Of a stretch of DNA of 28,834 nucleotides, positions 1 to 15,290 are shown one piece after another. Under the pieces are notes generated by a model, which ran no database searches, was not told the origin of the DNA, and saw only the letters and a list, made by a program, of their open reading frames with translations. Source of the stretch: a virus; the IMG/VR virus record IMGVR_UViG_3300029990_000045, positions 1 to 28,834 of that record; one strand, 5' to 3'. The position numbers were made by a program, and so were the translations under genes. Positions within the stretch are counted from its first letter, which is position 1, and each line of letters begins with the position of its first letter.

Positions 1-295
1 ATGTCGAATCAAATAGATACTGCCCACGTCCGCGTCATCCCGGTACGTTGAAGGTTTGGCGAGGTTATGAGGATGGCGCTGAGCTGTCAATGAAAAAACA
101 TACGCTTGTTTGAAATGGCCGTTACAGACCTGTTGCCCGAGGTTTTCACGGCTGGTCGTCGAGCTGGCGCATGGGTATGCTGAACACATTCCGCGCGTGT
201 TTTAAGTCGCGCCTCGTCATGAAGGAGTCACTGTGGAGTTTTTCACCAACTCTGACCAATGAGGCCACACCCCAAGCACCATAAGGGATTGGCCC
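1..295. other. Left flank before the integrase, no confident gene
   Basis: This stretch precedes the integrase and should contain or adjoin the left prophage end, but without the right end no attachment core can be named. No tRNA-like fold was seen. One + frame is open from the window edge to a TGA at 111-113 (36 codons) and could be the 3' end of an interrupted host gene; I do not recognise it. Other frames hold only peptides shorter than about 35 codons, including 177-284 and a GTG-started 9-codon frame at 232 behind an AAGGAG. These are too short and featureless to call. Confidence 0.4.
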
Positions 296-1747
296 ATGCA
301 GACCCCAACCACAGCGCCTCAACCTGTTAGAAAACTGTTAGACCTTGCCTGTCCTTATCTGTATAGGAGGCAGGGTCGATACTCTCTCAGAGTCCGTCCT
401 ATGGGCTCCAAACAGACCCTCACGCTCTCTCTCAAGACAACGCAAAGGCAAGCCGCTTTGACCACCGCTACTCACCTGCTGACCACTCTCAGAGCCTTCC
501 ACCTGGACAACCCTGACGCTACTTGGGATCAACTCAAAGAGCGCCTAAAGGAGATTGCTGAGGGTGTCCTACAGACTCGCTCTGTATGGGATGGTCTTGG
601 TGGTATGGGTCATGTGTATTCAGACCTCAACGACGACCTTGGGGAGATAGCCTCGACGGAGCCTCTCAATGTCGATCAGGCCAAGGCAGTCGAGTTAGGT
701 AGACGCATCATGCAGGCAGCTGAGCAGAGAGCATCGGGAGACCTCTCAGGCATCCTTGCGCTGCTCGAAGAGTTGAAGCAGTCCAACGACCTTCCAAAGT
801 CTCTCCCTGTGGGCGCTCCTACAGTTCCTCCTTTGGTTGTCGCTGGGGATGCAACTGGTGTGATGACCTTTGAGGCGCTCGCCAAGCTTTACACGGAAGA
901 ACGTGAAGCGGACTGGCAGCCGAACACAGCGAAGAACAAGAAGGCTTGCTTTGGGACTCTCTCAGGGCTTCTCGGTGAGTTGAACTTGCGCACCCACACA
1001 CGGAAGGACATGACAGACGTTAAGGCTCGCTTGATGGAAGGTCGTAAGCCATCAACCGTTAACAAGATCCTCATCGAACTCTCGTCGGTAATGACTTGGG
1101 GTGAAGATAACGGCTACCTAAACAAAACCTTTGATAAGGGCCTACTAATCCGTAAGGGCTCTGAGAGTGAGCGTGAGGCGTTCTCCTCGGAGCAAGTAGC
1201 GGCCTTGATGGCTCATGTGAACAAGCTACCAGAGTCGTCGTGGCAGCGTTGGGCCTTGAGTCTCGGTGTGGTGACGGGTGCTCGCATTGGGGAGATTTAT
1301 CAGTTGACCACTGAGGACCTCAAGGACATTGAGGGCCGGTTAGTAATGGACATAAACACCAACAACGATAAGACCATTAAGAACAAATACAGTATTCGCG
1401 TGGTTCCTGTCGTAGCTGCCTACGGGCTGGACGTAGAGGGCTTTAAGGCCTTCGCCAAGGCAGCAGATGGGAGACTCTTCAAGATGTCTTCAAGTGGCTT
1501 CACCATGCTGCTCAATCAGTTGATCCGCGATGTTCTCGGTACAGAGGCAGGTACAGGCCAGTCTTTCCACTCCTTGCGTCACCACCTTGGAGGAGCCCTG
1601 AAGCGCAAAGCCATACCTCTGGGGATCGCTCAGGAGATTCTTGGCCATAGCTCTGGGTCTATCACTTTTGACCTCTACGGATCGGGGAGGGCGGTACAAG
1701 TGGCACGCTTAGCTGAGGCTCTTCGGGATGCTCTTACAGAGAGCTGA
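296..1747 (+). CDS. int: Tyrosine-recombinase phage integrase
   Basis: A 483-residue site-specific recombinase expected to integrate and help excise the prophage. The C-terminal catalytic domain shows the family residues: Arg I in GARIGE (R330), the HxxR box (H425, R428), the third-box His in ILGHSS (H451), and the nucleophile Y461 in FDLYGSG. A lysine near 363-365 fits the beta-hairpin Lys. Residues about 190-285 form the core-binding domain (TFEALAKLYTEE onward). The N-terminal ~180 residues begin with an arm-type region (YLYRRQGRYSLRVRP) and continue into a long helical linker, so the protein is longer than the usual ~400 residues. The start is the first ATG in frame, behind a weak AGGG. 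It lies at the extreme left of the T7-type cluster and on the same strand. Lytic T7 has no integrase, so this gene marks the element as temperate or formerly temperate. Confidence 0.96.
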   Translation: MQTPTTAPQPVRKLLDLACPYLYRRQGRYSLRVRPMGSKQTLTLSLKTTQRQAALTTATHLLTTLRAFHLDNPDATWDQLKERLKEIAEGVLQTRSVWDGLGGMGHVYSDLNDDLGEIASTEPLNVDQAKAVELGRRIMQAAEQRASGDLSGILALLEELKQSNDLPKSLPVGAPTVPPLVVAGDATGVMTFEALAKLYTEEREADWQPNTAKNKKACFGTLSGLLGELNLRTHTRKDMTDVKARLMEGRKPSTVNKILIELSSVMTWGEDNGYLNKTFDKGLLIRKGSESEREAFSSEQVAALMAHVNKLPESSWQRWALSLGVVTGARIGEIYQLTTEDLKDIEGRLVMDINTNNDKTIKNKYSIRVVPVVAAYGLDVEGFKAFAKAADGRLFKMSSSGFTMLLNQLIRDVLGTEAGTGQSFHSLRHHLGGALKRKAIPLGIAQEILGHSSGSITFDLYGSGRAVQVARLAEALRDALTES

Positions 1748-1787
1748 CTGATATCATCGGAGGCTTTCTACTTAGGGAGCTTCACGG

Positions 1788-2174
1788 ATGCGTTTTTATG
1801 CTGTCGGCCTTGCTGTGCTAATTGGCTCTCTATTTGGATGCGGTAGCCACTCCTCGAATCTCCAAGTCGGCAATGAGCAATCATATGCAAGCTTGAAGGA
1901 TCAGAGAGAGGCAGTCCGAACCGTTAAGGTCTACGACGCTTTACCTACAGGAGCCCAAGTGGTGAATGAGGTATCAGCGGGGAGATGCCACAGGAGTTTT
2001 GTGGAGGAGGCGCCTACTGAGGCTGCCGTCTTAACTGACCTGAAGATTGCCGCATACGCACAAGGCGCAGATGGCATCACCGCCGTGAAGATTTCTAAAG
2101 AGTCAGGCCTTAATCGAAATTGTTGGTACGTGCTGGGTGGTACTGCCCAAGCATTCACATTGCACGAAGAGTGA
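1788..2174 (+). CDS. Small lipoprotein, RcsF-like; probable lysogenic cargo
   Basis: A 128-residue protein with a type II signal peptide: positively charged start, hydrophobic run and lipobox LFGC, giving a mature lipidated Cys at residue 18 followed by Gly-Ser, with no Asp at +2, so outer-membrane sorting is expected. The mature domain (VKVYDALPTGAQVV onward) has the pattern of small periplasmic RcsF/DUF4156-type domains: a short strand, then a helix rich in Ala (LKIAAYAQGADGITAV). Two cysteines (C67, C112) could form a disulfide. It follows the integrase by 40 nt with its own AGGGAG ribosome site and precedes the early phage promoters, so it can be expressed in the lysogen. That position and product suggest a moron acting on the host envelope. 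The family assignment is by pattern only; it could be an unrelated small lipoprotein. Confidence 0.7.
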   Translation: MRFYAVGLAVLIGSLFGCGSHSSNLQVGNEQSYASLKDQREAVRTVKVYDALPTGAQVVNEVSAGRCHRSFVEEAPTEAAVLTDLKIAAYAQGADGITAVKISKESGLNRNCWYVLGGTAQAFTLHEE

Positions 2175-2177
2175 CCC

Positions 2178-2288
2178 ATGGATAGAGCACTTACAGTTGC
2201 CGCATGGGTCCTCAGTGCCGCAGTCCTCTACGGGGTCGTTAAGCTTGTTCAAGCTTTCCCAAGAGTGACGGCCTTATTAGGATTTTGA
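2178..2288 (+). CDS. 36-residue single-span membrane peptide
   Basis: A short reading frame begins 3 nt after the lipoprotein stop and encodes 36 residues starting MDRALTVAAW. One hydrophobic segment (about residues 5-24: LTVAAWVLSAAVLYGVVKLV) would span the membrane, with a short basic-aromatic tail. The tight spacing suggests translational coupling to the lipoprotein. No Shine-Dalgarno of its own is clear, although GAAGAG lies 10 nt upstream. Function unknown. Tandem placement with an envelope lipoprotein suggests a shared envelope role, which is inference. Confidence 0.5.
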   Translation: MDRALTVAAWVLSAAVLYGVVKLVQAFPRVTALLGF

Positions 2289-2292
2289 AGAC

Positions 2293-2622
2293 ATGCAACT
2301 CATACAGCCAGAACTCCACATGACCTCCGAGCGGCTGCACGAACTGGCGCCTGTGCGTACCCATTCGGACATCTTGCGAACTGTCTTAAAAGGCATGGAG
2401 GAACTGTTGCGCGGCGGCATACTGACCCGCAAGGGCAGGCAGTGGGTCGTATCCTCTGGTGCAGTTGTGGTCGAAGAGTACAACTACACGGACTCTCAGA
2501 ATCGCAGCCAAGTAGCAGTGCGCTTTGGCTCCTGGCTGTGCCTCGCCTTGGCCCTAAAGGTTTCTCGTGAGGAAACCCGACAAGTGCTGTTGGATGCTAT
2601 TAAGAAGCACCCACTCGTTTAA
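2293..2622 (+). CDS. Hypothetical protein, 109 residues, left of the early promoters
   Basis: Not recognised. The protein is soluble and looks mixed helix/strand. Residues ~27-52 (DILRTVLKGMEELLRGGILTRKG pattern) followed by a short strand pair could be a winged-helix-like unit, and the C-terminal ~30 residues are helical (LALALKVSREETRQVLLDAI). This makes it one of the few candidates for a small regulatory protein in the lysogeny block, but no convincing helix-turn-helix is visible. The first ATG is used; an alternative ATG nine codons in has no better ribosome site. Its stop codon is embedded in the first phage promoter, so phage transcription starts as this gene ends and does not cover it. 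Confidence 0.6.
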   Translation: MQLIQPELHMTSERLHELAPVRTHSDILRTVLKGMEELLRGGILTRKGRQWVVSSGAVVVEEYNYTDSQNRSQVAVRFGSWLCLALALKVSREETRQVLLDAIKKHPLV

Positions 2623-2639
2623 AAACCCCCACTAAAAGA
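2618..2639 (+). promoter_or_regulatory. Phage RNA polymerase promoter P1 (phiOL-like position)
   Basis: Core AAAAACCCCCACTAAAAGA preceded by T residues; predicted +1 is A at 2637. It overlaps the stop codon of the gene at 2293 and lies just left of the sigma70-type early promoter. This is the position of phiOL relative to the A promoters in T7, where it takes part in replication initiation. A hairpin starts 13 nt downstream. Confidence 0.88.
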
Positions 2640-2649
2640 CGATTCCAAG

Positions 2650-2689
2650 AATCCGGTCGGTCCCTTATGGATTGGCCGGATTTTCTTTT
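2650..2689 (+). terminator. Hairpin with T-run just downstream of P1
   Basis: Stem AATCCGGTC (2650-2658) pairs with GGCCGGATT (2674-2682) with one G-U pair, followed by TTTTCTTTT. It looks like an intrinsic terminator and could end transcripts entering from the integrase block or attenuate P1 transcripts before the early genes. Confidence 0.65.
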
Positions 2690-2694
2690 GCGCA

Positions 2695-2742
2695 GATAAA
2701 CGCATATTGTGTGTTGACGTAAACGCATTTGGTGCGTACATT
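2695..2742 (+). promoter_or_regulatory. Sigma70-type early promoter with two operator-like dyads
   Basis: A -35 TTGACG (2714-2719) and a -10 TACATT (2737-2742) are separated by 17 bp, the best host-type promoter seen in the early region. The spacer contains a perfect dyad ACGCA-N5-TGCGT (2723-2737). A related, imperfect copy (ACGCA-N5-TGTGT, 2700-2714) ends at the -35. The two TAAACGCAT motifs are 23 bp apart, about two helical turns. This placement suits repression of early transcription. A very similar element recurs at 3591-3635. Confidence 0.65.
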
Positions 2743-2786
2743 GACGGCTCACACAGCGCGGTCACCGGCTCGCTACTTTTAGATAA

Positions 2787-2803
2787 ACACGTTTTGAGCG
2801 TGT
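2787..2803. repeat. Dyad in the leader of the first early gene
   Basis: ACACG (2787-2791) and CGTGT (2799-2803) form a perfect inverted repeat around a 7-nt centre, 15 nt before the start codon of the next gene. It may be an RNA hairpin next to the ribosome site (GAGGAT) or a further protein-binding dyad. Confidence 0.4.
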
Positions 2804-2818
2804 ATCGAGGATCAAACC

Positions 2819-3073
2819 ATGCAAGCAATCATCACCAAGTACATCGGCCCAACAACCACCAAGGCTTCCCGTATCAAAGCATCCTGCCTGACAGACACCA
2901 AGGGTGTGACTGTTTCGTGGGACCACGGCTTATCCAGCGATTCAAACCACGAAGCGGCCTGTGAGGCTCTCAAAGCAAAACTGCTCTGGATCGGCTACCC
3001 AAAGACCGTGATGGGGTCGCTGCCAGATGGCTCCATGGCCCACGTTTTTCTCCCACGTGAACTCTGCAAATAA
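2819..3073 (+). CDS. Conserved-type phage early protein, 84 residues
   Basis: The first gene behind the early promoter. The sequence (MQAIITKYIGPTTTKASRIKA start, then a VSWDHGL block and an Ala-rich helix EAACEALKAKLLWIG) has the look of a small protein widespread in Pseudomonas and other gamma-proteobacterial phages and plasmids, for which I know no function. It is 84 residues and predicted soluble, with a GAGGAT ribosome site 7-8 nt upstream. By position it corresponds to the T7 0.3 region (host-takeover functions), but it shows no resemblance to Ocr (gp0.3), and a role cannot be inferred from sequence. Confidence 0.75.
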   Translation: MQAIITKYIGPTTTKASRIKASCLTDTKGVTVSWDHGLSSDSNHEAACEALKAKLLWIGYPKTVMGSLPDGSMAHVFLPRELCK

Positions 3074-3149
3074 CTCAGTAAGCCACAGCCACCTTTAAAG
3101 AGCGCAACGGGGCCTCAACGAGTGCCCCTCAAACCGGAGTTTCAAGCTT

Positions 3150-3572
3150 ATGACCACCTACAACCTGACCAACTTCACCAGCGCCACAGTGGCCAACAAC
3201 ATCCTCGCAGCCATGCAGGACGCCTTACAGACCGGCCTTGCGCAGTACGTTATGAATCGCCGTGGCCGTCAGTGGCTGCGTGTTGACATCAAGCGGGACG
3301 ACAACAACCGCCTCTATTTCCAGTTCCTCACGGACACCATGCAGGAGGTCGGTCACCACCTTCTGAAAGCGGCGCTGTTTCACTGGTCGCGTGCTGATGA
3401 GCGTGAGTTCTCTGGTCTCAATGCCGCTCTGTACCGTCTGCCAGCGCATCCATTGGACATCCTCCTGGACGCACGCGAAGCGGAAGCAAAACGCAAAGCC
3501 TCAACATTTTTTCAGCGCGCCTGTAACTGGCTGGGATTTCCGCTAAAGGGTTTCCGGCTCTCGGTGAGCTGA
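3150..3572 (+). CDS. Hypothetical early protein, 140 residues
   Basis: Not recognised. It has an N-terminal helix-rich part (residues 10-36), a strand pair with basic residues (NRRGRQWLRVDIKRDDNNRLYFQFL), then helices and a basic C-terminus (AEAKRKASTFFQRACNW). The ATG is 9 nt after a GGAG. A GGGGC/GCCCC hairpin (3109-3128) without a T-run lies upstream in the gap after the previous gene. It lies in the early operon between the two operator-like elements. Presumably a host-takeover factor by position, with no direct evidence. Confidence 0.65.
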   Translation: MTTYNLTNFTSATVANNILAAMQDALQTGLAQYVMNRRGRQWLRVDIKRDDNNRLYFQFLTDTMQEVGHHLLKAALFHWSRADEREFSGLNAALYRLPAHPLDILLDAREAEAKRKASTFFQRACNWLGFPLKGFRLSVS

Positions 3573-3590
3573 CCGTTTCACGGAAATTAT

Positions 3591-3635
3591 GCATAAGTGC
3601 ATATTCCCATGCGTAAATGCATTAACATGTACATC
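3591..3635. promoter_or_regulatory. Second copy of the early operator-like element
   Basis: ATAAGTGCATATT is followed, after 6 nt, by CGTAAATGCATT and a terminal GTACAT. This matches the 2695-2742 element block by block (11 of 13 in the first block), with a 20-bp instead of 23-bp repeat. GCAT-N6-ATGC (3599-3612) is a perfect dyad. It lies in the leader of the oxygenase gene. No good -35/-10 pair accompanies this copy, so it may act on read-through transcription or at a weak promoter. Confidence 0.5.
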
Positions 3636-3680
3636 CATACAGTGTTCTGGCTGAAGCCGGATAGATTGGTAGAGGAACAA

Positions 3681-4394
3681 ATGACCCACGGACAAAACCA
3701 CGTACTGAGCAAGGCCATCACAGCCTTCTCTTCGCTCGACAAGTACCACAAGGACCTTCGCGACGTTCTCGACATCATCAAGGAAATGGCGGAATACGCA
3801 GAAGCCGTCAGTCCATTGGACATTAGCGTCATGTCAGAGTCGTCTGACTGGGCCAAGGCGTTGAAGGTCGTCACCCATTACGGGCACGGCATCTACTCCT
3901 TCCCGTACCTCTCTGAGGCGTTCTGCAAGGACCTCATGCTTGAGCTGGATTGCATGGAGTACAGCGTGAACGAGGAGGAGCCGGTAGAGGCGCAGATTCC
4001 TGAAGTCACCTTTCTGACGGAGTGCCGCCCGTTGTTTGACTGCCTGTACAGCCTTTGGGCCAACGCGGGGATTCCCTTGGCGAAGGTTCTGATGGGCCAA
4101 GACCCAAGCGTCATTAAGACCATCCAGGCAGCGCAATACACCACCGAGAACACTCCGCGTGGTCACTGGCACAACGATAAGGACTCGGACGTAACTCTGG
4201 TGGTTGCTCTAACAGCAACTCACGAGGGCGGCGGTACTTTAGTTCACACAGGACCTTTTACCGAAAACGTCTTGGTCCCCCAGTTGCCTGTGGGTCACGG
4301 GATGTTCTTTAACGGGAAAGCTAATCGGCACTATGGAATGCCAGTTATGGCAGGAGAGAGAAACTTGTTGGTTCATTGGAGCGAAGTTAAATGA
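3681..4394 (+). CDS. 2-oxoglutarate/Fe(II)-dependent oxygenase, early gene
   Basis: A 237-residue protein whose C-terminal half is a double-stranded beta-helix oxygenase of the prolyl-4-hydroxylase/PiuC type. The iron ligands are seen as H164-N-D166 in GHWHND and the distal His in NRHYG (H217). The 2-oxoglutarate-binding Arg is R227 in PVMAGERNLLVHW, spaced 10 residues after the His as in the family. A GGGTLVH strand lies between. The N-terminal ~65 residues are helical and not recognised. The start at 3681 has AGAGGA 6 nt upstream; earlier in-frame ATGs (3597, 3609, 3627) fall inside the operator-like element and lack a ribosome site. The target is unknown; hydroxylation of a host protein or of nucleic acid is possible. 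Its stop overlaps the next start (ATGA), so the two are coupled. Confidence 0.85.
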   Translation: MTHGQNHVLSKAITAFSSLDKYHKDLRDVLDIIKEMAEYAEAVSPLDISVMSESSDWAKALKVVTHYGHGIYSFPYLSEAFCKDLMLELDCMEYSVNEEEPVEAQIPEVTFLTECRPLFDCLYSLWANAGIPLAKVLMGQDPSVIKTIQAAQYTTENTPRGHWHNDKDSDVTLVVALTATHEGGGTLVHTGPFTENVLVPQLPVGHGMFFNGKANRHYGMPVMAGERNLLVHWSEVK

Positions 4395-4786
4395 GGGATT
4401 TTTTTAGCACTGGGGATTACATCAAGACGGACCCGTACAACACCCAGCTAAGGGCGGAACAAACGAGCACGAAAACAAAGAGTAGCACAGCGCCATCATT
4501 TGGCAAGCCTGTAAGTAAACTTCGTTTCTTAGCAGCAATTCCCCGTTACAGCGAGCGCGATAGTTCCTTCGTGTCGCGTATCGAACGCTGTGAGTTCAAC
4601 TTGGGAGTAGGGCCTTGCGGTCGTTATGTGACAGGGCTCTGGTTCGATATGTCGTCGAATTTCCTCACGATTACCCAAGAGAGCGAAGAGATTAATGGAG
4701 TTGGCCCACATGGGACTCCCGAGTTTAAAGAGTTCACCTACCTAATCACTGACATCACTGGTCGCATCGAGGCTGTTTCTATCTGA
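4391..4786 (+). CDS. Hypothetical early protein coupled to the oxygenase
   Basis: 131 residues, not recognised. The first ~45 residues are polar and Ser/Thr/Lys-rich, probably disordered. The remainder looks beta-rich (CEFNLGVGPCGRYVTGLWFDM, EFKEFTYLITDITGRIEAVSI). It overlaps the oxygenase stop by 4 nt, so it is probably translationally coupled and may work with it as a partner or substrate (inference). It is the last gene before the RNA polymerase promoter. Confidence 0.6.
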   Translation: MRDFFSTGDYIKTDPYNTQLRAEQTSTKTKSSTAPSFGKPVSKLRFLAAIPRYSERDSSFVSRIERCEFNLGVGPCGRYVTGLWFDMSSNFLTITQESEEINGVGPHGTPEFKEFTYLITDITGRIEAVSI

Positions 4787-4800
4787 TCCCATCCCGCTGG

Positions 4801-4822
4801 TTTAAAAACCCCCACTAAAACC
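4801..4822 (+). promoter_or_regulatory. Phage promoter P2 in front of the RNA polymerase gene
   Basis: Core AAAAACCCCCACTAAAACC; predicted +1 A at 4820. The next gene is the phage RNA polymerase itself, so the polymerase can transcribe its own gene. Confidence 0.88.
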
Positions 4823-4849
4823 GCTGTCCCTCTATGAGCCTTAACCCTT

Positions 4850-4937
4850 AGAGACTTCTTTAAGTCCTCTTTGCGGGTCTCTGCGCTCTCGATTCAGCAA
4901 AACACCTAACTAATTAGTTGGAGGCCGTAAAGGCCTC
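4850..4937. promoter_or_regulatory. Structured leader of the RNA polymerase gene
   Basis: Three elements lie between P2 and the start codon. First, AGAGAC/GTCTCT (4850-4855 with 4877-4882) can pair, or alternatively AGAG-ACTT with AAGT-CCTCT (4850-4870). The two folds exclude each other. Second, AACTAATTAGTT (4908-4919) is a perfect 12-bp DNA palindrome. Third, GAGGCC/GGCCTC (4921-4937) is a strong hairpin touching the Shine-Dalgarno (AAGGG, 4939-4943). Together they could gate transcription or translation of the polymerase. Confidence 0.45.
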
Positions 4938-4949
4938 TAAGGGATTCGC

Positions 4950-7640
4950 ATGTCCGCAGAAAGCCAGATTCAACCAACTAAACACGACTTCAGCGATATT
5001 AAAGACAAAGCATCATGGGCCTTCGAAACTCTTTCGGGAATGTACGGCCCTGAACTTGCAGCCACACAACTTGCCTTGGAGCACGAAGCGTACACGTTGG
5101 GTGAAGAGCGTTTCCATAAAGCACTTGAGCGCCAGATTGATCGTGGTGAATTTGCTGACAACGCCACCGCAAAGCACGTCCTGACCTCCCTTGTTCCTAT
5201 GATGATGTCCGCCTTTGATAAATGGGTTGAAAACCAAGTAACGAAGGTTCGCCGTAAGCATGTGGGACTTCAGTTCTTCCAGATGGTTAAGTCGGAGAAC
5301 GTAGCGGCTATCACCGTGAAAACCGTGCTGAACACCGTGGCAAAGAAAGGCCCTCAAAGCGTACAGAGTTTGGCTGTAGCTCTTGGCCGTGGCCTGGAGG
5401 AGGAAGCCCGCTTTGGTCGTATCCGTGAACAGGAAGCGGAGCACTTCAACAAGAACATCCGCAAGGCTCTCAACAAGCGCAACGGCCATACCTACAAGGT
5501 CAAATTCCTTGAGAAGGTTGAGGCGCATATGCAGGAAGCTAATGAGATTGAGTCGTCGTGGACCTCATGGGACTCCGTTGATAATGACGTGGCGTTCCAC
5601 ATGGGCATCCGCCTGATAGAGCTGCTCATTGAGTCCACTCAGTTGGTCGAGATGAAGCGTGAGAACGCTGGCAACGTGAAGCTTGATGGTGAGTTCATCT
5701 ACCTGACTCAGGAATGGGCTGACAAGCTGTGCAACAGGGCCTTCTGTCTGGCTGGGATCACCCCACGACATCAACCAATGATCGTCCCGCCGAAGGAGTG
5801 GACCAAGATGATTGGCGGGGGCTACTGGGCCAAAGGGCGCAAGCCTATCCCGTTGATTCGCGTGCGGTCGAAGCGTGCCCTTCAGCGTTACCGTGATGTG
5901 TCGATGCCTGAGGTCTACAAGGCCGTCAACATCGCTCAGGCTTCAGCTTGGAAGGTCAACACAAAGGTTCTCGAAGTAGCCAAAGCGATCATGAAGTGGA
6001 AACACGTCCCTATCGACAAGTTTCCAACGGCTGACCGTGAGGAACTGCCAATCCAGCCAGACGGCATCGGGGAAGACCCTATGGTTCTGAAGGCTTGGAA
6101 GAAAGAAGCAGCCGGTGTCTATCGCCGTGACCGTGCCCGTGTGAGCCGTCGCCTGTCCTACGAGTTCATCATTGAGCAGGCCGAGAAGTTCGCTGATTAC
6201 GAGGCGATTTACTTTCCGTACAACCTCGATTGGCGTGGCCGTGTTTACGCAATCCCGTCGTTCAATCCCCAGGGCAACGATATGACCAAGGGGATGCTCA
6301 TGGCTTCCGTTGCGGAGCCTGTAGGCAAGGACGGTATCGAGTGGCTCAAGATTCACGGGGCCAACTGTGCAGGCGTCGACAAGGTTGATTTCAGCCAGCG
6401 CAAGAAGTGGGTTGAGGACAATGAGGAGTTAATCCTTGAGATTGCTCGCGACCCGCTGGGCCAGTCTGAATGGACCAAGATGGATTCCCCGTTCTGCTTC
6501 TTGGCGTTCTGCTTCGAGTGGGCTGGCGTAGTCGAACATGGCGAACTCTGGGAATCAGCTCTACCGATTGCCTTTGATGGTTCGTGCTCGGGGATTCAGC
6601 ACTTCTCGGCAATGCTGCGAGACGAGCGGGGCGGTCGTGCGGTGAACCTGCTGCCTTCTGACGAAGTGCAGGACATCTATCGGTTGGTTGCTGAGGAAGT
6701 CATTGAGAAGGTCAAAAAGGACCTGATCGAAGGCACTGAAGACAGCGTGCAGCTCATCACAAACGAGAAGACCGGTGAGATTACCGAGCGCCGCGTTTTG
6801 GGGACTCGGACCCTTGCACAGGGCTGGATGGGGTACGGGATCAGTCGCAAGGTGACTAAGCGTTCCGTGATGACACTGGCTTACGGCTCAAAGGCCTTCG
6901 GGTTCACCGATCAGGTCCGCGACGACATCATTCAGCCAGCAATTGACGAAGGCGACGGCGCTCAGTGGTTCCCGGATGCACAGCAGTGCGCGCGCTATAT
7001 GGCCAACATGATTTGGGACTCTGTGAGTGTGGTCGTGGTGAAGGCCGTTGAGGCGATGTTGTGGCTACAGAAAGCGGCAAAACTGTTGGCTACTGAGGTT
7101 ACTGCGACCAAGAAGACCAAGAAGAACCCTGAGCCGGAAATCCTGAAGCCGTGCATGCCTGTGTATTGGGTGACCCCTGATGGTTTCCCTGTGTGGCAGG
7201 AGTACATGAAGCCCATTCAGCGTCGAGTTGAGCTGATGTTCCTTGGGACTATTCGTCTGCGCTCCACGGTCAACATTAAGGACTCGGACATCATCGACGG
7301 GCCTAAGCAGGAATCGGGTATCTCTCCGAACTTCGTGCACAGCCAAGATGGGTCTCACCTCCGCAAGACGGTCGTTAAGGCTTCTGAGTGCTACGGCGTG
7401 GAGTTCTTCGCGTTGATCCATGACAGCTTTGGAACCATCCCAGCGAAGGCCGGGAAGATGTTCAAGGCAGTTCGGGAAACGATGGTCGAGACGTACACCG
7501 AAAACGATGTTCTCGATGACTTCCGTGAGCAATTCATGGAGCAGCTACACGAATCCCAACTGGAGAAAATGCCACCTCTGCCAACCAAAGGAACCTTGGA
7601 CATCACCAAGATTCTGGAAAGCGAATTTGCGTTCGCCTAA
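4950..7640 (+). CDS. 1: T7-type single-subunit RNA polymerase
   Basis: 896 residues (T7 gp1 is 883). This is the phage polymerase that reads the promoters listed here. The palm motif IAFDGSCSGIQHFSAM carries the first catalytic Asp (D543; T7 D537). The O-helix region KRSVMTLAYGSKAFGF holds the conserved Lys and Tyr. NFVHSQDGSHLRKT and IHDSFGTIP (D825; T7 D812) complete the active site. The specificity loop region (757-772) aligns with T7 742-759: Arg is kept at T7 746 and 756, but T7 N748 is Glu (E761) and Q758 is Arg (R771). The C-terminus ends in FAFA, as T7 ends in FAFA. It is preceded by its own phage promoter and followed by a promoter-terminator-promoter cassette. Confidence 0.99.
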   Translation: MSAESQIQPTKHDFSDIKDKASWAFETLSGMYGPELAATQLALEHEAYTLGEERFHKALERQIDRGEFADNATAKHVLTSLVPMMMSAFDKWVENQVTKVRRKHVGLQFFQMVKSENVAAITVKTVLNTVAKKGPQSVQSLAVALGRGLEEEARFGRIREQEAEHFNKNIRKALNKRNGHTYKVKFLEKVEAHMQEANEIESSWTSWDSVDNDVAFHMGIRLIELLIESTQLVEMKRENAGNVKLDGEFIYLTQEWADKLCNRAFCLAGITPRHQPMIVPPKEWTKMIGGGYWAKGRKPIPLIRVRSKRALQRYRDVSMPEVYKAVNIAQASAWKVNTKVLEVAKAIMKWKHVPIDKFPTADREELPIQPDGIGEDPMVLKAWKKEAAGVYRRDRARVSRRLSYEFIIEQAEKFADYEAIYFPYNLDWRGRVYAIPSFNPQGNDMTKGMLMASVAEPVGKDGIEWLKIHGANCAGVDKVDFSQRKKWVEDNEELILEIARDPLGQSEWTKMDSPFCFLAFCFEWAGVVEHGELWESALPIAFDGSCSGIQHFSAMLRDERGGRAVNLLPSDEVQDIYRLVAEEVIEKVKKDLIEGTEDSVQLITNEKTGEITERRVLGTRTLAQGWMGYGISRKVTKRSVMTLAYGSKAFGFTDQVRDDIIQPAIDEGDGAQWFPDAQQCARYMANMIWDSVSVVVVKAVEAMLWLQKAAKLLATEVTATKKTKKNPEPEILKPCMPVYWVTPDGFPVWQEYMKPIQRRVELMFLGTIRLRSTVNIKDSDIIDGPKQESGISPNFVHSQDGSHLRKTVVKASECYGVEFFALIHDSFGTIPAKAGKMFKAVRETMVETYTENDVLDDFREQFMEQLHESQLEKMPPLPTKGTLDITKILESEFAFA

Positions 7641-7660
7641 TAAAAACCCCCACTAAAAGC
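7639..7660 (+). promoter_or_regulatory. Phage promoter P3
   Basis: Core AAAAACCCCCACTAAAAGC; predicted +1 A at 7658. It overlaps the stop codon of the RNA polymerase gene. A strong terminator hairpin begins 10 nt after +1. Confidence 0.86.
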
Positions 7661-7667
7661 ACAACAG

Positions 7668-7703
7668 AGCCTCACTGAGATTAACCGTCTCGTGAGGCTT
7701 TTT
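7668..7703 (+). terminator. Early terminator (T7 TE-like role)
   Basis: AGCCTCAC-T-GAGA (7668-7680) pairs with TCTC-GTGAGGCT (7688-7699) around a 7-nt loop, with a single unpaired T, followed by TTTTT. It would stop host-polymerase transcription at the end of the early region, right after the phage RNA polymerase gene. Confidence 0.85.
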
Positions 7704-7714
7704 AGTGCCTGAAA

Positions 7715-7736
7715 TTTAAAAACCCCCACTAAAAGC
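7715..7736 (+). promoter_or_regulatory. Phage promoter P4
   Basis: Core AAAAACCCCCACTAAAAGC, identical to P3; predicted +1 A at 7734. It restarts transcription just beyond the early terminator and drives the 1.1-like gene through ligase. Confidence 0.9.
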
Positions 7737-7771
7737 ACAACCAACCTTTCCCTATTTCAGGAGTTTTTTCG

Positions 7772-7915
7772 ATGCAGTCCACTCAAGCAGTTCAACGCAA
7801 TGCCCGCACCTCTAAGCGCCGTCCAGAAGAAGAGATGGAAGCTGTACGGAGCCGTCGCGGCAAGTTGAACAAAGTGCAGCGTCAGGCCCGCCACAACTGG
7901 GAGTCGGCAGAATGA
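7772..7915 (+). CDS. 1.1: gp1.1-like basic peptide, 47 residues
   Basis: A short, very basic protein whose second half (RRGKLNKVQRQARHNWESAE) resembles the C-terminus of T7 gp1.1 as I recall it (RKLNK..R...RSWEGQ), in the same place: the first gene after the polymerase. AGGAG lies 9 nt before the ATG. Its TGA overlaps the next ATG. Function unknown; a nucleic-acid contact is plausible from charge. Confidence 0.75.
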   Translation: MQSTQAVQRNARTSKRRPEEEMEAVRSRRGKLNKVQRQARHNWESAE

Positions 7916-8190
7916 GCCAGATTACCGTCCGCACTTCGCACTCAAAGCTCGACAAGAAAACTTTCCGCTTCGACACAGTAATAACTGTTCAAGGTGTGGA
8001 GGGTGTCCCCCAGACACAGCTTGTCGATAAGCGCGAACTTCGTTCCCTTCGGTTTATTACAGCCAAGAACGACTCTGACCGCTGTGAGCAGTTTGCAAAG
8101 TTCCTGAATGACACCGTTGAGATGAAAGTAAAACGTGCCATTGCCAACACGATCATGAAAGTTCAACTTCTCAGCAAGGAAGCTAAATAA
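7912..8190 (+). CDS. Hypothetical protein, 92 residues, before ligase
   Basis: Not recognised. It is in the slot of T7 gene 1.2 (dGTPase inhibitor) but I see no sequence likeness to it. Predicted beta-rich N-terminal half (ITVRTSHS, FRFDTVITVQG) and helical C-terminal half (CEQFAKFLNDTVEMKVKRAI). Start and stop both overlap neighbours (ATGA upstream, TAATG downstream), so it is tightly coupled to the 1.1-like gene and ligase. Confidence 0.75.
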   Translation: MSQITVRTSHSKLDKKTFRFDTVITVQGVEGVPQTQLVDKRELRSLRFITAKNDSDRCEQFAKFLNDTVEMKVKRAIANTIMKVQLLSKEAK

Positions 8191-9200
8191 TGGCGACTCA
8201 AGAAGTAATCATCGTAACTAACCCACATCGTCCTGTGGACTTCAACGAAAAGGCAGTCGCTAAGGTTCTCGAAGAGACCTATTTGATTGCTGACGTTAAA
8301 GAAGATGGGGTCCGTTTGAACCTCTGTGTTCGCCCCGATGTAACAGGGGAGTGGGCTACTGACTGGCTGTCTCGGGAAGGTAAGCATTTTCCTGCTTTCC
8401 TGAGCAACAACATGGCGCAGCCTTTGGACTTTGATAATCGCTGGTCCGAGTTCTTTGAGACCGACGAGGCACTGTTTCCTGAAGGCTTCATGTTGGATGC
8501 GGAACTACGCATTGACGACTTGCCCTGCAAGGACATCGCTGGGACTTTGCGCCGTCATAAAAGCATCGACCTGAGCCGTCTGAAAGTGATCGTTTTCGGC
8601 ATTGTCCCGATGTCTGTAATTCGGTCCGGTGAGACCTACGACGTGACCCACAGTGTCATGAAGTACCACGCTGAGTACCAAGTGAAGTTGCTCCAAGAGC
8701 GCTTCCCTGAAATCGCGTGGTCGGTCGTTGAGTCTCTCGATTGCTTCAGCATGATCGAAGTCGAGACTTTCTATGGCGCAGTCCGTGAGCGGAGGCTTGA
8801 AGGGCTGGTGCTGAAAGACCCTAACGGTGTCTGGAAGCGCTCGAAGCAAACCGGTATGTGGAAGATGACCCCGAACGACAACGAGGATGGAAAGGTTGTG
8901 GGTTTGGTGTGGGGCTCCGAAGGCCTGGCTAATGAGGGCAAGGTGATCGGCTTCGAGGTTCTCCTTGAGTCCGGCCATGTGGTTAACGCCTGCAAAATCA
9001 GCAAGGCGCTTATGGAGGAGTTCACTTCCGCTGTGATGGCCGATACGGATTTCCAAGTGGGGCCTTCTTTTCAATACGGCAACCCGTACCTCGGCCACAC
9101 CGTGAAGGTCACCTTTATGGAGCGCTACCCGGACGGGTCTTTAAGGCACCCATCGTTCGACTCTTTCCGTGGCATCTCGTCCCCACTCATCAAGGAGTAA
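8190..9200 (+). CDS. 1.3: ATP-dependent DNA ligase (gp1.3)
   Basis: 336 residues (T7 ligase 359). It seals nicks in replicating phage DNA using ATP. Motif I is VKEDGVRLN with the AMP-accepting Lys at residue 37. Motif III-type MLDAELRI, motif IV EGLVLKD and motif V WKMTP follow in order. The C-terminal ~100 residues form the OB-fold part (KVVGLVWGSEGLANEGKVIGF). AAGGAAG precedes the ATG, which shares an A with the upstream stop codon. Confidence 0.96.
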   Translation: MATQEVIIVTNPHRPVDFNEKAVAKVLEETYLIADVKEDGVRLNLCVRPDVTGEWATDWLSREGKHFPAFLSNNMAQPLDFDNRWSEFFETDEALFPEGFMLDAELRIDDLPCKDIAGTLRRHKSIDLSRLKVIVFGIVPMSVIRSGETYDVTHSVMKYHAEYQVKLLQERFPEIAWSVVESLDCFSMIEVETFYGAVRERRLEGLVLKDPNGVWKRSKQTGMWKMTPNDNEDGKVVGLVWGSEGLANEGKVIGFEVLLESGHVVNACKISKALMEEFTSAVMADTDFQVGPSFQYGNPYLGHTVKVTFMERYPDGSLRHPSFDSFRGISSPLIKE

Positions 9201-12532: not shown

Positions 12533-12979
12533 ATGGCTCGTGTTCAATTCAACAAGAGGGCAGCAACTAACCTACTCGTTATCCATTGTGCGGCGACCAA
12601 ACCTTCTATGGATATTGGTCTGCGCGAGATTCGCCAATGGCATGTGCAACAAGGGTGGCTTGATGTTGGCTACCACTACATTATTCGACGCGATGGCACT
12701 GTCGAAACAGGCCGTCCTCATGATGTAGTTGGGTCCCATGTTAAAGGTCACAACTCCGACTCTCTGGGGGTCTGCATGGTTGGCGGTATCGACGATGGGG
12801 GCAAGCCTCAAGACAACTTCACAGATGCTCAATGGAAAGCTTTGGACCTTCTGGTCTGGGAAACCATTGTTCCGCTCTATCCCGGCGTAACTCTGAAAGG
12901 TCACAGAGACCTTGATGCAGGTAAAGCCTGTCCGTCTTTCGATGTAGCCCAATGGGCATATAAGCGAACTCCGGCATAA
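12533..12979 (+). CDS. 3.5: N-acetylmuramoyl-L-alanine amidase / T7-type lysozyme (gp3.5)
   Basis: 148 residues (T7 151). A zinc amidase that cuts peptidoglycan and, in T7, also binds and inhibits the phage RNA polymerase. The zinc ligands are H18 (LLVIHCAAT), H124 (LKGHRDLD) and C133 (KACPSF). The catalytic Tyr and Lys are Y47 and K131. Because this prophage has a self-transcribing RNA polymerase gene, a lysozyme-type inhibitor may be an important brake. It is followed by a UUCG terminator. Confidence 0.96.
   Translation: MARVQFNKRAATNLLVIHCAATKPSMDIGLREIRQWHVQQGWLDVGYHYIIRRDGTVETGRPHDVVGSHVKGHNSDSLGVCMVGGIDDGGKPQDNFTDAQWKALDLLVWETIVPLYPGVTLKGHRDLDAGKACPSFDVAQWAYKRTPA

Positions 12980-13054: not shown

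Positions 13055-15290
<2,236 letters not shown>

Follow-up and report, generated by a model that had tools for sequence, protein, structure and literature searches.

A gh-1/T3-type promoter directly upstream of the RNA polymerase gene in a T7-like phage genome with an integrase, and its probable role as an autogenic amplifier

In the engineered T7 autogene, the T7 RNA polymerase (RNAP) gene is placed under a T7 promoter. A phage promoter before the polymerase gene (gene 1) is also a conserved and already annotated feature of the gh-1 group of phages, where the annotated phi1 of gh-1 (NC_004665, 939-961) and the annotated promoter 1 of phiPSA2 both precede gene 1. The gh-1 promoter consensus is TAAAAACCCTCACTRTGGCHSCM (quoted in PMC4517105). 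Positive feedback has already been proposed for LUZ100, in which a promoter was mapped directly upstream of the RNAP gene by ONT-cappable-seq and a MarR-like protein was put forward by the authors as the repressor of this promoter, phi1 (PMC10134795, 2023). The Pseudomonas phage vB_PaeM-G11 (OQ622254; hereafter G11) was obtained from a lysogen by UV induction and is flanked in the host chromosome by 14-bp att repeats (PMC10142737). Here we describe a corresponding site, P2, in a related genome and weigh what it is likely to do.

The polymerase gene and the promoter set

The window, meaning the whole stretch of DNA that was analysed, is a virus record of 28,834 bases with T7 gene order. Its 5' part encodes a tyrosine integrase, an RcsF-like lipoprotein (a name taken from the G11 annotation), ORF3, small early genes, a 2OG-Fe(II) dioxygenase, a T3-gene-1.05-like product and the RNA polymerase. 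These are followed by ligase, a gp2-like host polymerase inhibitor, SSB, endonuclease, lysozyme, helicase-primase and DNA polymerase, and in the last part by connector, head assembly protein and capsid. An ORF at 13055-13612 weakly matches a poly(A) polymerase/CCA-adding head domain, and the G11 paper lists a CCA tRNA nucleotidyltransferase of similar size. The genes that matter most for the present argument are these:

296..1747, + strand: tyrosine integrase (Pfam PF00589, 1.8e-14; PHROG 1)
4950..7640, + strand: gene 1, single-subunit T7-type RNA polymerase of 896 aa (Pfam PF00940/PF14700; PHROG 414)
12533..12979, + strand: gp3.5-like amidase/lysozyme, a potential polymerase inhibitor that would give delayed negative feedback (Pfam Amidase_2, 1.5e-15; PHROG 822)

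The integrase gene adjoins the T7-like early region, as in temperate T7-like phages. The integrase, together with the UV-inducibility and att repeats of the closest isolate, G11, makes a temperate setting likely for the window phage; the 14-mer att sequence of G11 was searched for in the window and is absent. Gene 1 begins with an ATG at 4950 and is free of internal stops over its 896 codons. The initial annotation had named its product as the phage polymerase, and the matches to Pfam RNA_pol (7e-108) and PHROG 414 (1012 bits) agree. The protein is 84% identical to the polymerase of G11 and 68-69% identical to that of gh-1.

A motif scan of the window found four exact copies of TAAAAACCCCCACTAAA (2620, 4803, 7641 and 7717) and six with one to three mismatches (9699, 11278, 19763, 22333, 23360 and 27819). 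Every copy is on the + strand, and the total of 10 compares with 0.08 matches expected per window in shuffled sequence. The four exact copies are as follows:

2620..2642, + strand: P1, distal phage promoter in the position of T7 phiOL (exact core match; present in nine integrase-bearing records)
4803..4825, + strand: P2, gh-1/T3-type phage promoter, -17 to +6 (exact 17-nt core, leave-one-out score, orthologues in relatives)
7641..7663, + strand: P3, beginning directly after the gene 1 stop codon (exact core match)
7717..7739, + strand: P4 (exact core match)

Between the tandem P3 and P4, just past gene 1, lies a terminator-like hairpin (7669-7703; GCCTCAC...GTGAGGC, then TTTTT) that a simple scan did not pick up, probably owing to its long loop.

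P2 scores 32.2 bits with a matrix built leaving P2 out, whereas no non-site in the window scores above 6.4. The core tract of P2, P1 and P3/P4 is ACCCCCACT, and P2 displays the gh-1/T3-type traits of an A/T-rich stretch from -17 to -12, CCC from -11 to -9 and CACT from -7 to -4. Furthermore, the promoters of the window repeat before gene blocks on the transcribed strand, as gh-1/T3-type promoters do. The predicted +1 of P2 is 4820, which is 130 nt from the gene 1 ATG. No gene intervenes and both elements are on the same strand, the arrangement of phi1 in LUZ100 and gh-1. Sequence and comparison bear out what had first been read here, namely a consensus-core promoter with a start of transcription predicted at about 4820 and an autogene (positive-feedback) topology, with a cognate phage promoter directly before gene 1. 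The accompanying statement that T7 has no promoter ahead of gene 1 holds for the region immediately upstream, but phiOL (405), the counterpart of P1, lies upstream of T7 gene 1 on the same strand.

The first transcribed bases of P2 depart from the usual. Positions +1 to +6 read ACCGCT, while most early and middle sites have AGCACA or AGCAGA, and this start may weaken initiation. The orthologous site of a near relative (L030, also listed as L006) starts with AGCACT, a difference that would be expected if P2 were a silent relic with a retained core and a decayed initiation region. We regard this relic reading as highly improbable, since the core is perfect, the late promoters P7, P9 and P10 share the AC start with P2, and the sites before gene 1 in relatives have changed along with their polymerases.

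Conservation and coevolution among relatives

We surveyed 57 records chosen for similarity to the window polymerase, with duplicates kept, by clustering promoter-like sites and asking whether one lies within 450 nt upstream of gene 1; for 11 of the less regular cases, additional occurrences of that motif were looked for. Such a site was present in 41 of the 57, mostly 95-180 nt before gene 1, and many of these records are virulent phages. T7 and four other records (L046, L047, L048 and L050) have a good motif, yet no site within 450 nt, and for about eight of the 57 no motif could be derived. P1 is found in nine integrase-bearing records of the survey. Three of these (L032, L033 and L022) keep P1 and have no recognisable P2, so P2 is dispensable within the lineage. 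In another record (L066:1-1124), an integrase match covering residues 3-251 is followed directly by a remnant of the 2OG-dioxygenase, shortly before the RNA polymerase. The record would seem to be a prophage that lost an internal part of its early region but retained P2.

The distance to gene 1 bears on a reading in which P2 serves mainly for read-in to the middle genes, or as a signal for replication priming or entry, the extra polymerase being a by-product. T7-type promoters do act in genome entry and replication priming as well, and transcripts from P2 would run through gene 1 to P3 and P4, although a terminator-like hairpin is in their way at 7669-7703. However, P3 and P4, directly past gene 1, would already supply the middle genes, and with a spacing of 95-180 nt in most of the relatives where the site occurs, gene 1 itself looks like the target. 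We consider this role as the main function of P2 quite unlikely.

The position of P2 is conserved in L030, G11, L031, Pseudomonas fontis L028 and L008. These five and the window all have an Arg at the position equivalent to T7 Gln758 together with a C at promoter position -8, and in the Arg-bearing phages the promoter that precedes gene 1 and the remaining promoters alike carry this C. In contrast, Gln-bearing relatives for which a motif was derived have a T at -8. The residue numbering and the contact of residue 758 with -8 we take from what is known of T7 RNAP. This covariation is the pattern that selection on a working promoter would be expected to produce. Because the site stays in position across relatives and its sequence shifts together with the specificity loop of the polymerase, P2 is very probably a working promoter for the phage's own RNA polymerase.

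These comparisons do not sustain the earlier view of P2 as an unusual prophage device. The site is annotated in the virulent gh-1 and in phiPSA2, occurs in most of the relatives surveyed, and is absent from three integrase-bearing ones.

The gene 1 leader and control of the early region

The transcript predicted from P2 would begin with a leader that holds one recurrent structure:

4820..4949, + strand: gene 1 leader, 130 nt, aligned in relatives with many invariant blocks
4918..4940, + strand: hairpin TTGGAGGCC(GTAAA)GGCCTCTAA immediately 5' of the GGGAT ribosome-binding region, its stem kept with changed sequences

Directly before the ribosome-binding region of gene 1, 14/14 sequences examined have a hairpin, also where P2 is absent. 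The stems differ (GAGGCC/GGCCTC, GCTC/GAGC, AAGAGC/GCTCTT, GCGACTT/AAGTCGT and ACGGG/CCCGT), and in single sequences the shuffle p value ranges from 0.0005 to 0.13. The hairpin belongs with the ribosome-binding site of gene 1 and not with P2, and its role could alike be insulating, stabilising or restraining.

Two further leader elements were considered and rejected. A switch in which the 5' segment CCCUUAGAG pairs with CUCUAAGGG at the ribosome-binding site could form 9 bp in the window, but its pairing probability in folds is approximately 0 there, compared with 0.12 in L030 and 0.63 in L066, and the pairing is lost in L034, L035 and L024, where the segment can pair locally. The palindrome CTAACTAATTAGTTGG, considered as an operator, is not conserved; a 14-nt stretch is missing at this place relative to G11.

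Additional candidate control elements lie upstream, around ORF3:

2293..2622, + strand: ORF3, 109-aa candidate DNA-binding regulator, found only in integrase-bearing relatives
2650..2691, + strand: terminator-like inverted repeat with a T-rich tract just downstream of P1, similar in G11
2694..2801, + strand: three 21-nt operator-like repeats (2694, 2717, 2781) with dyads ACRCR-N5-YGYGT, over the host promoter
2714..2742, + strand: sigma-70-like host promoter TTGACG-17-TACATT, the only such match in 1-8000, conserved in G11, L022, L033 and L032
3590..3642, + strand: second regulatory region with GCAT dyads and a LexA-like dyad (3627-3642), conserved and intergenic, the window copy at chance level

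The sigma-70-like scan gave one match against 3.9 expected, fewer than in shuffles. As the scan is not significant by itself, we place the weight for the host promoter on its conservation. Clusters of such repeats were confined to the window, to L029, which nearly duplicates it, and to four integrase-bearing records (L010, L022, L032 and L033); none of the virulent phages has them, and none lie at P2. Among 50,697 phage records, ORF3 was found only in G11. Its sequence has no significant Pfam or PDB match and a Foldseek search against PDB was uninformative, while its AlphaFold model (pLDDT 85) modestly resembles phage regulatory/antirepressor (Rha-type) proteins in BFVD (best E 1.7e-4, TM approximately 0.6). 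ORF3 is the best candidate for a regulator and might act on the 2694-2801 repeats.

The placement of the repeats bears on the proposal, made in the initial annotation and resembling the LUZ100 model, that P2 is the core of a lysis/lysogeny switch, in which repressor sites at P2 silence the autogene and any leak makes the prophage bistable. There is a temperate module in the window, and the MarR-like repression of phi1 suggested by the LUZ100 authors would be a precedent. On the other hand, operator-like repeats of the 2694-2801 kind are absent at P2, promoters of the P2 type are also present in virulent members of the gh-1 group, P2 is missing from some temperate relatives, and no MarR-family match was found in the ten ORFs scanned (296-9200). 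P2 is therefore unlikely to be the switch. The lysogeny brake is likelier to sit at the 2714-2742 promoter, where the repeats adjoin ORF3. Of the brakes proposed earlier, a repressor is suggested by these repeats, though away from P2; a gp3.5-like lysozyme gene is present, though downstream of gene 1; and the hairpin before the ribosome-binding site is real, a brake being one of several possible roles for it.

The LexA-like dyad at 3627-3642 was not accepted as a LexA box, having two mismatches with 0.69 chance matches expected in the window. Better matches stand at the corresponding place in relatives (CTGTATGAACATACAC in L022 and L033, GTGTATAGACATACAG in L035), and we treat the dyad as a lead only. 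The nearest isolate, G11, is UV-inducible.

The reading we favour for P2 is that of an autogenic amplifier, which would raise polymerase synthesis after a start by the host polymerase, rather than that of a lysogeny-specific switch. Host RNA polymerase would first transcribe the early region through gene 1, probably from the 2714-2742 promoter. The first phage polymerase molecules would then fire P2 and the distal P1, so that polymerase synthesis amplifies itself, while the gp2-like protein would shut off the host enzyme and the gp3.5-like protein would later damp the phage polymerase. In P. putida, the lysozymes of T7-like Pseudomonas phages reduce the leakiness of expression driven by the RNAPs of these phages (PMC10138996). 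Lysogens would stay silent through control further upstream, where the three operator-like repeats would serve to repress the host promoter and ORF3 is the best candidate for the regulator. We put the probability at roughly 0.8 that P2 is a genuine gh-1/T3-type promoter making gene 1 autogenous within such a scheme of host start-up and upstream repression; the sequences show the motif, its position, its conservation and its coevolution with the cognate polymerase, while the transcription from P2, the repression and the part given to ORF3 are inferred. A more specific version is tentative: in a lineage of temperate gh-1-like phages, ORF3, as a regulator of non-MarR type with a Rha/antirepressor fold, encoded next to the integrase gene and acting on three operators at the host promoter, might restrain the autogene, with a possible LexA-type input at the second region and with P1 and P2 forming a one-way latch once repression fails.

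Comparison with known systems

Like P2, phi1 of gh-1 lies a short distance upstream of the ATG (119 nt), belongs to the class TAAAAACCCTCACT... and serves a polymerase with the 68-69% identity given above. Unlike the window phage, gh-1 is described as lytic; its promoter has T at -8 and the initiation sequence GCTGCA, and phi1 is overlapped by an annotated terminator.

LUZ100 is likewise a T7-like phage with an integrase and a phage-specific promoter directly before the RNAP gene. Its MarR-like regulator adjoins the integrase and is proposed to act at phi1, whereas in the window the repeats lie at a host promoter that precedes gene 1 by approximately 2.2 kb, and ORF3, the candidate regulator, is a protein of a different type; the window covers only 295 nt upstream of the integrase, and the search for a MarR-family match applies to the ten ORFs scanned.

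The closest isolate, G11, shares the early gene order, orthologues of P1 and P2, the operator repeats and ORF3. It differs in its promoter core (ACACCCACT), its RNAP loop and the GTG start of gene 1. The G11 record carries no annotation of the site before gene 1, and its paper uses the word "promoter" once.

The polymerase-promoter pairs, in which a single base covaries with a single residue, could naturally supply orthogonal expression parts for use in Pseudomonas, and the temperate branch offers a natural case of how a phage stores an autogene silently. The engineered T7 autogene is similarly a polymerase gene under its own promoter; the window case differs in being natural, in a phage genome, with a host-driven start-up and a downstream lysozyme. 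Together the comparisons indicate that self-transcription of the polymerase gene, a trait called peculiar in LUZ100, is the rule within the gh-1 branch, and that T7, which keeps only the distal promoter, is an exception.
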